Shown in pieces: positions 41,135 through 64,000 of a stretch of DNA of 64,000 nt. A program made the position numbers and the translations under genes. Within the stretch, counting starts at the first letter, position 1, and each line of letters begins with the position of its first letter. The DNA lies in contig NZ_FZMF01000033.1 of assembly GCF_900197685.1 (NCBI RefSeq), positions 1 through 64,000 of the forward strand, read 5' to 3'. This DNA comes from Helicobacter baculiformis. Lineage in GTDB: Bacteria; Campylobacterota; Campylobacteria; Campylobacterales; Helicobacteraceae. The notes beneath the pieces were generated by a model, which did no database searches, had not been told where the DNA came from, and was given only the letters and a program-made list of their open reading frames with translations.

Positions 41135-41711
41135 GAGTCTCCTTAAAAGCTTGCACCACGCCCCTTTGCAAGATGGGGGGTAGGTGAGCAGGGATTTGGT
41201 GTTGGGCTAAGAGGGCTTTAATTTGGCTCGATGAAATGCGCTCTTGAATCTGGGGCAAGGGGATACAAAGCGAAGAAAAAGAAGGCTCTATGGGGTAGCC
41301 CTCCCTTTGCACAATCACAAATTCAGTGAGTTTTTGCATCGTGGTATAGCCCTCCCACTGGGACAAATGCGCCAAATTATCCGCGCCCAAAATAAAGTAA
41401 AGCTTGCTAGGTTGCAAGGTGTGGTGAAAATGCAAGACACTTTCTACACTGGGTACAGGGCGTTGCGCGCGAATCTCAAAATCGCTCACCTCCACTTTAG
41501 CCAACCCGCTTAAAAGCCTTTGCATCCAAGTATAGCGTTGGGTGGCGCTAAAGCAGGGCGCGCCCTTGAAGGGGTTTTGATAGGCGACAAGCACGATGAG
41601 CTGATCAATCTCTAAATGCTCTAAAGCCTGATAAATCACCTCCAAATGGGCGATATGGGGGGGGTCAAAGCTCCCGCCATAGAGGGCAATTTTACTAGGT
41701 GTTTTGCTCAA
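41121..41711 (-). CDS. nadD: Nicotinate-nucleotide adenylyltransferase NadD
   Basis: NadD makes nicotinate adenine dinucleotide in NAD synthesis. The 196-residue nucleotidyltransferase opens with [19 protein letters not shown], whose [11 protein letters not shown] holds the catalytic HxxH-type motif. [18 protein letters not shown] and [13 protein letters not shown] follow. It overlaps nikR upstream by 17 bases and rsfS downstream by 14. The nikR-nadD pair is also adjacent in H. pylori (HP1338, HP1337). Confidence 0.96.
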
Positions 41712-42147
41712 AACTAGATGCCTTGGTGAGTTTAGAAAATTTCACGCCCTTTAGCCCCCCGATCTCCAAGTGCAAATGCATGATCTCTGAGGGCTTGCCC
41801 TTTAAAATAATGGTTTCTAAGCAGTTATTGGCGTTGAGATGTACATGGGTGGTGCACATAATGGTGATGTGGCTCTCATGTTGGATGTCGATGATCTTTT
41901 GATTGAGTTCGCGTTGGTGGTGATCGTAAATAATGACCAACACCGCCACAGTGAGCCCCTCCTTTGCTTCGCTCAAATCCTCATCGCTCGACCAATTGTC
42001 TTCTACGAGCTTTTCACGAATCATGTCGCGCACCAACTCCGATCGCGAAGAATAGCCATTTTTGATAATGCGGTTGTCTAGCTCGTCTAATAGGTTCTGC
42101 TGCAAAGACACAGAAAACCTGATTATAGCGTCGTCCTTATGCTCCAT
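41695..42147 (-). CDS. nikR: Nickel-responsive regulator NikR
   Basis: NikR is a tetrameric ribbon-helix-helix regulator that binds DNA when loaded with Ni(II) and controls urease, nickel uptake and storage in Helicobacter. The 150-residue protein has the DNA-binding half [20 protein letters not shown] and an ACT-like metal domain. The high-affinity site is intact: His of IQHES, His pair in TTHVH (+11, +13) and Cys (+19) of NNCLE. ATG 42147 is chosen over upstream in-frame ATGs because AAGGG lies five bases ahead. Its product is a good candidate to control the His-rich gene at 60.9 kb, but no matching operator was established. Confidence 0.96.
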
Positions 42148-42194
42148 CATGACCCTTATTTGCAAAAAATTCTTTTACTTTATCCTAATTTGAC

Positions 42195-50384: not shown

Positions 50385-51704
50385 TTAGTGATGCCCTGCG
50401 TTGAGCCCCTCTGCCATGTTGGCGATTTTTCGATTGAGTTCATCGCGTTTTTCATAAAACATTTTATCAATAGTTTCGCGCACGCCCTTAGCATGCTGTT
50501 CAACAGCACGGATACCTTGCTCAATGGCGCTGGGTGTAGCTCTATCGGGGTCCTTGAGCAGACTAGCCAATGCATTAGCTTCGTCATGCACGCCGTTATG
50601 ACAGGACTCCAAAGCGCGATAACTAGGAGTGCTAGAGAAGTGTTCTTTGCCACTACCTTCATGATACCATTTACCCAAACGGCATTCGCTACCATTAATT
50701 ACCTTAAAGCTATTAGGCGCACCAAAGACCAAGCCATAGAGATTACACTTATAGACCACATGATCGATCTTAGCCAGTCCGCAAAAAGCGCGGTTATTCA
50801 CATTCTCAATAGAAAAAAGGGCTGCATCCGCGACAACCTTATTGGCGTGAGAAATATTTTTCACATTGTCTACATCACTCTTAATGCTTTGAACGATGGT
50901 GTTTGTCTCATGTGTATTGCCTTGAATGTCGCTCGCTTCTTGTTGCATGGACTTGACAACCACGGCGATTTCTTTAGTGGCTTTTTGGGTTTTTTCGGCA
51001 AGCTTGCGCACTTCATCGGCTACCACCGCGAAGCCCCGCCCATGTTCGCCCGCGCGTGCGGCTTCGATAGCAGCATTCAGAGCTAAGAGGTTAGTTTGTT
51101 CGGCAATGTCATCAATCAAAGAAATTACTTGGGTGATCTCGCTACTGCGCTGGTTGAGCGAGTCAGCCAAGACAATAGCATTTTGCATTTTTTCATAAAG
51201 TGTATCGATCTTATCGCTTGTTTTAGATACATGACCGAGTGAGTCTTGAGAGTTTTTACTTCCATTACCCGCCGCTTCGATCAAGGCATCTGTATCGGTC
51301 AGGATACTTTGTAAAGTTTGCTGAATACCCTCTATACCTGTTTTCATACTATTGTAATAGAGGTTAAAAATGCTATTTTTGCCTAGCCCAGCCAGTGCGT
51401 CAAAATCCTCGCTTAAAGAGTAATAAAGCGTGTCATCAATGCGCTTGCTTTTAAGGTGGTAAGTATGGTTATTGAAATGGAAGGTTTGGCTAGCATGGGC
51501 TAGTTCGCTCGTTTTTTGTTCTAAGCCACTGATTTCTGCAATTGCTCCACTTTTAAAGACGATCTGATTTTCTTTGATGCCAATCAGCCCTTCGCGGGCG
51601 CATAACTCCACAAGTTGCTGGTAACAATCCAGTTTTTTTTGCAAAGAGCGAATCTGTGCGTCCTTGTCGTCTACTTGCTTGTTACGCTCCTTAGAAAAAA
51701 ACAT
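50385..51704 (-). CDS. tlpD: Cytosolic energy/redox chemoreceptor TlpD
   Basis: A 439-residue soluble chemoreceptor. It has no membrane helix. The signalling hairpin is intact ([35 protein letters not shown]). A C-terminal CZB zinc-binding domain follows with [18 protein letters not shown] and HNGVHDEAN supplying His and Cys ligands. In H. pylori TlpD senses oxidants and electron-transport state and is needed for gastric colonisation. bioF follows without a gap. Two -10 boxes precede it. Confidence 0.95.
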
Positions 51705-60937: not shown

Positions 60938-61642
60938 CTAATGGCAGTTAAAATCTCGATCGCCATACGCTTGGGGACCTTGAGCGTGGGGCGCGCTTGC
61001 AAAGCCATGTGGGAAATGGTGGGCATGGGGTCCAAAATGACCATGGGGATTAAAATGTGCTTGATGGGCAAAACCATGTCCATAAAAAGGCATAAAACCT
61101 AGCACAAACATGCCGCAAAAGTGAGGGAAAGGGTGGAAACCAAAGGGCATTCCATAAGCGCCGTGGTTAAAGCCATGGGATTGTGGGCCACAGCATGCAT
61201 GTCCATGCGCACCAAAGGGGGGTTGACCTTGAAAGCCGCCCGCTTGATGTCCAAAATGTCCAAAATGTCCTTGATGTCCTTGATGTCCTTGATGTCCTTG
61301 ATGTCCTTGATGTCCTTGATGTCCTTGATGTCCTTGATGTGTTCCATAATCATGCTGTGTGGCATGATGGCAAGAATCCTCTGAGGAAGCGGGAGCGTCG
61401 GCGCCTAAAAGAGCAACGAGGGCATCGCGGATCCCTTCAAAATTTTCAAGCTTATGAGGGAATACTAATTTAAAGACTTCTTCCTTACCCTCTTTGGTGT
61501 AGACAATTTTCATTTCACTCAGATTAAGATCTTTAACTCGTACATTGCTTACACCTTGAACTTGCGCGTACTTTTCTAGCAACTTTACTACATTGTCTAA
61601 CTGCTTAGTGTTCAAGACATCTAACGCGTGCTGTTTATCCAT
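60938..61642 (-). CDS. Histidine-rich (HQG-repeat) probable nickel/metal-binding protein
   Basis: A 234-residue protein in two parts. Residues 1-82 are a compact alpha/beta domain (LDVLNTKQLDNVVKLLEKY, KEEVFKLVFPHKLENFEGIR) reminiscent of DUF2470-type domains. Residues 91-234 contain about 31 His, five Cys, and many Gly and Gln, starting with (HQG)8 HFG HFG and continuing with GHG/PHG/HAHH patterns. Such tails bind Ni or Zn, as in Hpn and Hpn-2 of gastric Helicobacter, but this is longer and has an extra N-terminal domain. AAAAGGAG gives a strong ribosome-binding site. No signal peptide: cytosolic storage or donation to urease or hydrogenase is the best guess. Confidence 0.85.
   Translation of the reverse strand: MDKQHALDVLNTKQLDNVVKLLEKYAQVQGVSNVRVKDLNLSEMKIVYTKEGKEEVFKLVFPHKLENFEGIRDALVALLGADAPASSEDSCHHATQHDYGTHQGHQGHQGHQGHQGHQGHQGHQGHFGHFGHQAGGFQGQPPFGAHGHACCGPQSHGFNHGAYGMPFGFHPFPHFCGMFVLGFMPFYGHGFAHQAHFNPHGHFGPHAHHFPHGFASAPHAQGPQAYGDRDFNCH
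61251..61340 (-). repeat. 9-bp tandem repeat, ten units
   Basis: On the plus strand two CCAAAATGT units (61251-61268) are followed by eight perfect CCTTGATGT units (61269-61340). Read in reverse they code HQG eight times, then HFG twice. Being multiples of three, changes in copy number alter repeat length without breaking the frame. Confidence 0.9.
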
Positions 61643-62095
61643 AAAGGCTCCTTTTTGCTTGTTTTTCGTCCTAAGACTTGGGAAGTTTAGTGATATGAAG
61701 CTTAATAATAACTTAATTAATAATATTGCATATAAATTAGTTGATAGTATTAATAATAACTTTATTGATAATTTAATTAGTATATAAATTTATTGATAGA
61801 TAACTTAATTATAATTACTTTGAAAAGTTAAGATATCAACTTGATTATTTATGATGTCTTTTTTTAAGCAAGAGGTTTAGACATAATTGAGATATGATTC
61901 CATGTAGGTTAGGACAAAAAATATTAACGCCTTGCGTATGCATATACATGCCGTCCAAATGGCATGCACTCCTTAAGATGATTTTTGAGCGGACCTTCAC
62001 CCCTGATCCTGCATAGGATACGTGGAAAGTTTTTATATTTGCCCCTTAATCCAAAATACGCTAAGCTAAGGCATCATTTTCTAAGGTGGTGTGTT
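61643..62095. other. AT-rich intergenic region between the His-rich gene and comB2
   Basis: About 61695-61870 is almost pure A/T, unlike the rest of the window. TTAATAATAACTT occurs twice (61702-61714 and 61750-61762), and TTATTGATA also recurs. Such T/A-rich repeats resemble Fur- or NikR-type operator composition in Helicobacter, but no full palindrome was established. Both flanking genes read away from it. A frame open from 61985 lies ahead of comB2 without a supported start. Confidence 0.5.
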
Positions 62096-62362
62096 TTGCG
62101 TTTTTGGATGCTTTGGGGTTTGGGAGCTTGTGTTCTGCTTGCGCAAGGGGCTGAGAGCTTTTTTAACGCCATTGAAGCACAATTAAAAAGCAACACGGCT
62201 AAGGGCATTCTGATGTTAATCTTCATTGGAATTGCCTTTTATGTGTGGCGTAACTTGGATCGTTGGCGCGAAATTTTCTTCACTCTCTTAAGTGTAGTCT
62301 TAGGGATTATGCTCTTTTTCAAAGCCCCCGCTTTAGCTTCATGGTTTATGGAGTTATTTTAA
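62096..62362 (+). CDS. comB2: ComB2 (VirB2-like pilin of the DNA-uptake system)
   Basis: An 88-residue VirB2-like protein of the ComB type IV apparatus that takes up DNA across the outer membrane in Helicobacter. It has a signal-like first helix (MLWGLGACVLLAQGAES), then GFFNAIEAQLKSNTAKGILM-like mature start (here ESFFNAIEAQLK) and two more helices (ILMLIFIGIAFYVWRNLDRW, FFTLLSVVLGIMLFF). The frame opens at 61985, but TTG 62096 with AAGGTGG upstream, or ATG 62108, gives the family length. TAATG overlap with comB3. Confidence 0.9.
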   Translation: MRFWMLWGLGACVLLAQGAESFFNAIEAQLKSNTAKGILMLIFIGIAFYVWRNLDRWREIFFTLLSVVLGIMLFFKAPALASWFMELF

Positions 62363-62702: not shown

Positions 62703-64000
62703 TTACCAGCGCAATTTGCCAGTGCGGTCGGGGTTTTCTAAAATGTTTTGGACATCCTGTATCGTTTTAATGGAGAGTTCGCCCCCATAGAGTTGGCAAA
62801 TACCATTTAGAGCCTCATAAATTTTACCCTCATCACAATGCGCGTAGGCACTTTGATAATCCTTAAAACACGCATCTAATGCCATCAAACGCTCTTGATG
62901 GGTGGAGGCGATCAAGGCTTCTAACTCTTCTCTTTTGGCTACCAATGCGGGCAAGTGTGTCTCTACTAATTGGGTGATCTCTTCGGCTCTGAGCTTGGCA
63001 CGATCCCTAGCAGCAAACGCCCCAAAAAGAGAATCTAGCGCCATATCAATGCTTCTATGACTCACCACCACCGCAAAGGCTCCGGCCACAATGGCTAAAA
63101 TAGGCGCGACAAAGGGAGCAAGAGGGGGCGCAATCACGGCTAACTTAGCCTCTAAGCTCCTTTCTAACCCCACAACACCAACCACCCACGCCGCACCAAA
63201 AAGAGATTTTAAAATGGTTTTGAGTAAATCTCTAAAACTTTTGATCTCTCCCTTGATGTAAGAGAAAATGCCATTGTAGATAGATTTAGCCACATTTCTA
63301 AGGGCATGCCAAAGTTGGCGCAAAGACCCGGCAATGCTTTTAAAGATTTGCCCCACAATGCCCACCACCACATCGATCGCTCCAAATCCTGCCCTGCGCG
63401 CAAATGCCGACTTAAAAGCCTCTAGGGTTTTGCTTAAAAGCCGTTTGATCCGCTCCAGAATGCTGATATCCGTATCTATGGGGTGCTTGGCATACGCGTC
63501 CTTGATTTCCCACACAATCCCATTAGCTAGAGTAGAGAGACTAAAAACAATCGCATCGCTCAAACCCGCTTGGGCGATGTGCCCGCTAGCCGCCACGCTT
63601 TGGGTCATCAACGCGCTAACTCTAGGGTTTTCACACATCCAGCGATTGGTTGTGTTGTTGGCATTGAGTTTGTCTAGGGCTTGTTGGGCTTTTTGTGCTT
63701 GCGCTCCACCATTTGCGACCATTTTTTCTAGGTTTTCTTTATGGTGTTTGTAGTCCTCATAGGGCATGCGCAAATCCACCCCGCTCTCTAGGTAGCGATC
63801 CTTTAATAGCCCCTTTGTGTCTTTAATCACCTTGAGTTGGGCGGTGTTGATGACATTGCCCTTTTTGTCTGGGGTGAGCGTGTCTGTGGTGTTGTGGTTG
63901 GTGCGGGCTAGATCGTCAAGTTTGCTAAAATCCATGTGTTGCACCTCATCACCATAATAAGCTAGAATGTGCTCCACTTTTGCCTGGTCTTTGGGACTCA
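62703..64000 (-). CDS. Unrecognised membrane-associated protein (5' end outside window)
   Basis: An open frame of at least 432 codons running off the window edge; a GTG at 63977 is only the first possible start inside. Order of parts: a hydrophilic, charged N-terminal region (~1-120), a long run of amphipathic basic helices (~170-265, e.g. RLLSKTLEAFKSAFARR and FKSIAGSLRQLWHALRN), a hydrophobic pair (AAWVVGVVGL, LAPFVAPILAIVAGAFAVVV) and a C-terminal helical region with KLRAEEITQLVETHLPALV. I do not recognise the family. The mix of amphipathic and hydrophobic helices could suit a membrane-acting protein. It converges on comB3. Confidence 0.75.
   Translation of the reverse strand, partial: SPKDQAKVEHILAYYGDEVQHMDFSKLDDLARTNHNTTDTLTPDKKGNVINTAQLKVIKDTKGLLKDRYLESGVDLRMPYEDYKHHKENLEKMVANGGAQAQKAQQALDKLNANNTTNRWMCENPRVSALMTQSVAASGHIAQAGLSDAIVFSLSTLANGIVWEIKDAYAKHPIDTDISILERIKRLLSKTLEAFKSAFARRAGFGAIDVVVGIVGQIFKSIAGSLRQLWHALRNVAKSIYNGIFSYIKGEIKSFRDLLKTILKSLFGAAWVVGVVGLERSLEAKLAVIAPPLAPFVAPILAIVAGAFAVVVSHRSIDMALDSLFGAFAARDRAKLRAEEITQLVETHLPALVAKREELEALIASTHQERLMALDACFKDYQSAYAHCDEGKIYEALNGICQLYGGELSIKTIQDVQNILENPDRTGKLRW

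Follow-up and report, generated by a model that had tools for sequence, protein, structure and literature searches.

HspA (GroES with a His/Cys tail), SlyD, HypB and UreE each join a folded domain to a variable histidine-rich tail, and a nickel function has been tested in these families. The protein described here resembles them in layout, although its folded domain, of the DRI (DUF2470) type, differs from theirs. The histidine-rich proteins named in H. pylori are Hpn, Hpn-2 and HspA, and Hpn has been found in other gastric species tested (Vinella et al. 2015, PMC4671568). Among DRI proteins, HugZ/ChuZ (TIGR04109; 3gas, 3swj) carries DUF2470 at its N terminus together with a split-barrel catalytic domain; cyanobacterial Dri1/Ssr1698 (8gdw, 8gf4) stands alone without a split barrel and binds Zn/heme through His16, His21 and His79. 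Heme binding is abolished in a His16Ala–His21Ala double mutant of Dri1, and likewise by His9 and His14 mutations in ChuZ; the histidine pair is strictly conserved across phyla, with the exception of the plant glutamyl-tRNA-reductase-binding protein (GBP) (Grosjean et al., PMC11014987).

Here we describe a gene in a 64,000-nucleotide stretch of Helicobacter baculiformis DNA (the window) whose product combines a DRI domain that lacks the heme site with a disordered tail. This combination is a new architecture, and we hold both the architecture and the loss of the heme site with high confidence. The literature searched contained no account of a Helicobacter protein in which DUF2470 is joined to a His-rich tail.

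An intact gene under selection

The open reading frame runs on the minus strand from an ATG at 61642 to a stop codon at 60938 and comprises 234 codons without interruption (Table 1), confirming the intact frame claimed in an earlier note on this DNA. The strong ribosome-binding site claimed there was also found, directly ahead of the ATG, and, in line with the view taken there that a signal peptide is lacking, a hydrophobic leader is absent: residues 1–82 are modelled as a folded domain. The gene is probably monocistronic. With a pN of 0.04–0.21 in the N-terminal domain versus a pS of 0.24–0.92 across orthologs, the gene is under selection, which in this domain is purifying. We conclude that it is a genuine gene. 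A frame artefact was considered and rejected, as the tail aligns in frame with that of H. mehlei through the GMFV-GF-PF core.

Table 1 Features of the DRI/His-tail locus (positions in the window)
Feature	Position	Strand	Evidence
DRI-domain/His-tail protein, 234 aa	60938..61642	minus	ORF calling, Pfam, AlphaFold model, residue counts, orthologs
DRI (DUF2470) domain, residues 1–82, V9/Q14 in place of heme/Zn His	61397..61642	minus	Pfam, PDB sequence match, AlphaFold model, Foldseek
Predicted disordered tail, residues 83–234	60941..61396	minus	AlphaFold pLDDT mostly 40–50; composition
9-bp minisatellite coding (HQG)8 HFGHFG, with flanks	61243..61340	minus	TRF, DNA-level unit comparison
Tail core GMPFGFHPFPHFCGMFVLGFMPF, kept in most orthologs	61071..61160 (approximate span)	minus	Alignment
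Ribosome-binding site AAGGAG (AAAAGGAG), just 5′ of the ATG	61648..61655 (approximate span)	minus	Sequence
Palindrome, consensus AAGTTTATAGTnnnACTATMAACTT, ~100 nt 5′ of the ATG; degenerate copy here	61738..61762	minus	Cross-species conservation
Intrinsic-terminator-like hairpin, directly 3′ of the stop codon	60896..60923	minus	

A DRI domain that has lost its heme histidines

The resemblance of the N-terminal domain to DUF2470, suggested previously, is borne out by several methods. Residues 5–78 match PF10615 with 25.8 bits, and the isolated domain with 29.1 bits, above the Pfam gathering cut-off of 22 bits; all eight orthologs scanned also match. A profile of the orthologs searched against the PDB retrieved ChuZ (3swj), HugZ (3gas) and Dri1/Ssr1698. 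AlphaFold modelled residues 1–82 with a pLDDT of 89–95 and the tail with values around 40–45, and the predicted model contains the three-helix/three-strand DRI fold. The best Foldseek matches were all to Dri1 (rmsd 1.3–2.4 Å over 76–79 columns), followed by HugZ 3gas, mycobacterial MSMEG_6519 and plant GBP.

When aligned to ChuZ (3swj), the domain lacks the heme/zinc histidine pair of the HMNxxH motif, with V9 and Q14 at the positions of H9 and H14. The orthologs carry V or I at position 9 and Q at position 14; therefore, the heme site has been lost. In terms of Dri1, other residues stand where His16 and His21 would be, and there is no histidine in the third helix of the domain. Since the heme site is lost, and with GBP as a precedent, the domain is by analogy more likely to be a protein-binding module now than a heme binder. 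It could have other ligands, for example given His5, which is invariant among the orthologs.

The HugZ of the same genome (L002:1501-2370) shares the N-terminal DUF2470 domain, with 31% identity over 80 residues, and also ends in an HPHG-type tail. The two proteins are nevertheless distinct: here the split-barrel catalytic domain is absent, the HMNxxH heme histidines are lost and the tail is predicted to be disordered, and the protein scores only 26 bits against the HugZ model TIGR04109, for which the cut-off is 240. HugZ proteins of the clade have His-rich, HPHG-type C-terminal tails that vary by species. Dri1, the best PDB match by fold, has ~100 residues and, unlike this protein, no long disordered tail.

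Histidine content of the tail varies among species

We counted 31 histidines in the last 144 residues (binomial P ~4e-17 against a background of 3.2% in the other proteins of the window), and the enrichment persists when the HQG units are left out (P ~6e-12). The tail contains an exact (HQG)8 run at residues 102–125, and the protein has five cysteines, at positions 91, 150, 151, 176 and 233; the earlier counts of all three were exact. TRF reports 10.9 copies of a 9-bp unit at 61243–61340, and all eight HQG units are identical in DNA, each reading CATCAAGGA. The alignment places a single HQG in the corresponding tail region of H. mehlei. This single copy, together with the identity of the units, points to recent slippage; (HQG)8 thus reflects the recent growth of a minisatellite rather than conservation of a motif. 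Matches of the tail to Collagen/Scl were dismissed as composition-driven, arising from G-x-Q repeats.

Full-length orthologs have in common a tail rich in G, F, Q and P and the core GMPF...GMFVxGFxPFxGF, which the truncated copy of H. heilmannii lacks. Across ortholog tails, glycine (mostly 17–20%) and phenylalanine (10–14%) are steady and each tail has 3–8 charged residues, whereas histidine ranges from 3.5 to 21% by species (counts of 31, 22, 21, 11, 8, 6, 5 and 2). The highest count is that of H. baculiformis, followed by probable H. felis and H. cynogastricus (21–22) and H. mehlei (11); tails of the H. heilmannii group are of similar length and lack cysteine, and their histidines number 5–8, except in H. 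heilmannii itself, whose truncated copy has 2. Histidine is not common to the ortholog tails, and its enrichment is thus lineage-specific. With 31 histidines, a CC pair and other cysteines, the tail of this species has a putative Ni/Zn/Cu-binding capacity that is chemically likely.

A clade confined to some gastric species

A family search in Helicobacter found the gene in nine of the 34 species of the genus, among them H. mehlei, H. ailurogastricus, H. cynogastricus, H. heilmannii, H. sp. NHP21005 and probable H. felis; the family is confined to some gastric Helicobacter species. In NHP21005 the reading frame is shifted early in the gene, and in H. heilmannii the tail is short, so the gene is not indispensable in every species. 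The tail family forms one clade with support of 100/100, and the branch between it and HugZ measures ~1.9 changes per site; a separate full-length HugZ is encoded in this genome and in most other genomes that hold the tail gene. A HugZ fragment or pseudogene was rejected as an explanation on the basis of the separate 100/100 clade, purifying selection and the presence of this second, full-length gene.

Other DUF2470 matches in 121 genomes of the family and 399 of the order had the length of HugZ, save one short type with a Met/Gly/Pro-rich tail in two species (L051:4487-5122 and L052:8123-8773, in genomes G013 and G033). This second short type keeps HMNxxH, its tail is also rich in Cys, and upstream of its gene are hypB...hypD and a methyltransferase gene; a link to a metal (Ni or Cu) is possible. 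Both genomes are near that of H. baculiformis in the HugZ tree, yet they lack the His-tail gene.

Gene neighbours differ between groups. Probable H. felis and H. cynogastricus have the gene and queH in convergent orientation, an arrangement also found in the window, though there with a Sel1-repeat gene in between; in the H. heilmannii group the gene adjoins a glutamyl-tRNA synthetase-type gene and a gene for a YeeE/YedE-type sulfur transporter. A receptor-like gene lies beside the His-tail gene of H. mehlei, and the window encodes a soluble chemoreceptor with a CZB zinc-binding domain (50388–51704). The window also encodes a protein of at least 431 residues (62706–63998) that has no Pfam match and continues past the window end.

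Hpn, urease and the promoter

The protein, Hpn and Hpn-2 are all His-rich proteins of gastric Helicobacter with paired cysteines. However, the present protein is four times longer, has a folded domain, has no His run longer than two in its tail and shares no alignable sequence with the Hpn of this genome. A genuine Hpn of 56 residues is encoded elsewhere in this genome (contig C37, near 5.7 kb), and a BLASTP comparison of the two yielded no alignment; homology to Hpn was rejected on this ground, in line with the earlier view that the two are distinct. Among eleven genomes searched, only those of H. baculiformis, H. cynogastricus and probable H. felis have two ureA genes. These are the three holders of the tail gene with the most tail histidines, a correlation that rests on two or three lineages. 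The ureA genes of H. baculiformis are on contigs C51 and C37; the second shares its contig with hpn, at a distance of ~2.7 kb.

A palindrome precedes the gene in six of nine genomes, representing six species, and is nearly unique to it: further matches in the nine genomes comprise two inside ORFs and one intergenic copy in H. heilmannii. We therefore rejected the palindrome as a regulon marker, and no regulon can be named. The intergenic H. heilmannii copy (L038, ~1501–1525) lies between divergent genes, and the gene to its right resembles the TrbC/VirB2-type gene of the window (61985–62359).

NikR is encoded in the window (41695–42165), and the H. pylori-type NikR consensus has a two-mismatch match at 61731–61755, one of four in the window versus 1.5 expected by chance. 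By eye, no copy of the palindrome was seen ahead of ureA, hpn or nikR. The window in turn lacks the element that is conserved upstream of ureA in the clade; control of the gene by NikR is therefore not supported by these sequence comparisons.

Discussion

The earlier note had proposed a nickel storage or delivery factor. As a dedicated factor for urease or hydrogenase, the protein would sequester Ni(II) in its tail and dock on an accessory protein through its N-terminal domain, and the His-rich tail with its CC and C residues, the coincidence of the three most His-rich tails with a second ureA among the holders, and the occurrence of another DUF2470 protein downstream of hypB...hypD in two other species all count in favour of such a role. 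However, that coincidence comes from two or three lineages, Hpn is already encoded separately, the palindrome is missing at ureA, hpn and nikR while the ureA element is missing from the window, and the H. heilmannii group keeps the gene despite few histidines and no tail cysteine. We consider a dedicated nickel factor rather unlikely. A metal-binding tail on a new N-terminal domain thus survives from the proposal as a supported prediction for this species, whereas nickel storage or delivery does not hold as the job of the family: besides the His-poor orthologs, comparison of the promoter with those of urease and hpn revealed no common element, and the DUF2470 heme/zinc histidines are gone. For the version found in this species a nickel role is plausible, but it is not what the family has conserved.

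Descent from the HugZ/Dri1 family would also suit a heme- or iron-linked regulator, in which the DRI domain would still sense heme or iron through non-canonical ligands (such as invariant His5 or tail histidines) and target a partner protein, much as succinate dehydrogenase is targeted by Dri1. In the promoter, the half-site TTGATAGT has a putative likeness to Fur-type half-sites, but the spacing is unlike that of known Fur boxes; with both heme/Zn histidines lost in the orthologs and the split-barrel domain absent, such a regulator seems improbable. Alternatively, the protein could be structural or form condensates, its aromatic G/F/Q/P tail causing it to self-associate or to attach to a partner or surface, with histidines that drift without function. 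The steady G/F content and GMF-GF-PF core alongside widely varying histidine, the few charged residues per tail and the origin of the HQG run by slippage from one ancestral unit are consistent with this, although drift sits poorly with the enrichment of histidine apart from the HQG repeat in this species, and we regard a purely structural protein as unlikely.

Our tentative preference, still short of an even call, is for a heme-blind DRI domain that serves as a protein-binding platform and bears a rapidly evolving sticker tail, to which this lineage has added a capacity to bind metal. The product is a cytosolic two-part protein: a compact domain homologous to that at the N terminus of HugZ, minus both heme/zinc histidines, and a low-complexity, disordered tail. 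The tail spans ~150 residues and is rich in Gly, Phe, Gln and Pro, to which His is added in this species. Fold and composition are the sole basis on which we infer that the domain may act as a protein–protein platform (for dimerization or partner binding), for which GBP, likewise without these histidines, is a precedent, and that the aromatic/Gly tail may act as a multivalent sticker. Here the tail has gained histidines through Q/P/N-to-H changes and expansion of the 9-bp repeat; it is expected to bind Ni/Zn/Cu-type ions and may serve as an auxiliary buffer beside Hpn. Since the tail histidines were gained in this lineage, metal buffering would be a lineage-specific addition and not the founding function. 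That the protein buffers metal in this species is possible but uncertain, and that the metal is nickel is doubtful. In a broader and unlikely version, the DRI domain of a group of gastric Helicobacter discarded its heme site and was rebuilt as the anchor of an evolvable tail; the tail would be a Phe/Gly/Gln sticker in certain species, whereas those with a second urease would use it as a His metal reservoir.

In some species, the protein adds a further His-rich candidate to Hpn, Hpn-2 and HspA, and it illustrates how fast a His-rich tail can arise on a domain of unrelated origin. With it, the DRI/DUF2470 family gains a bacterial branch without heme ligands, in which a partner-binding role could be studied apart from heme.
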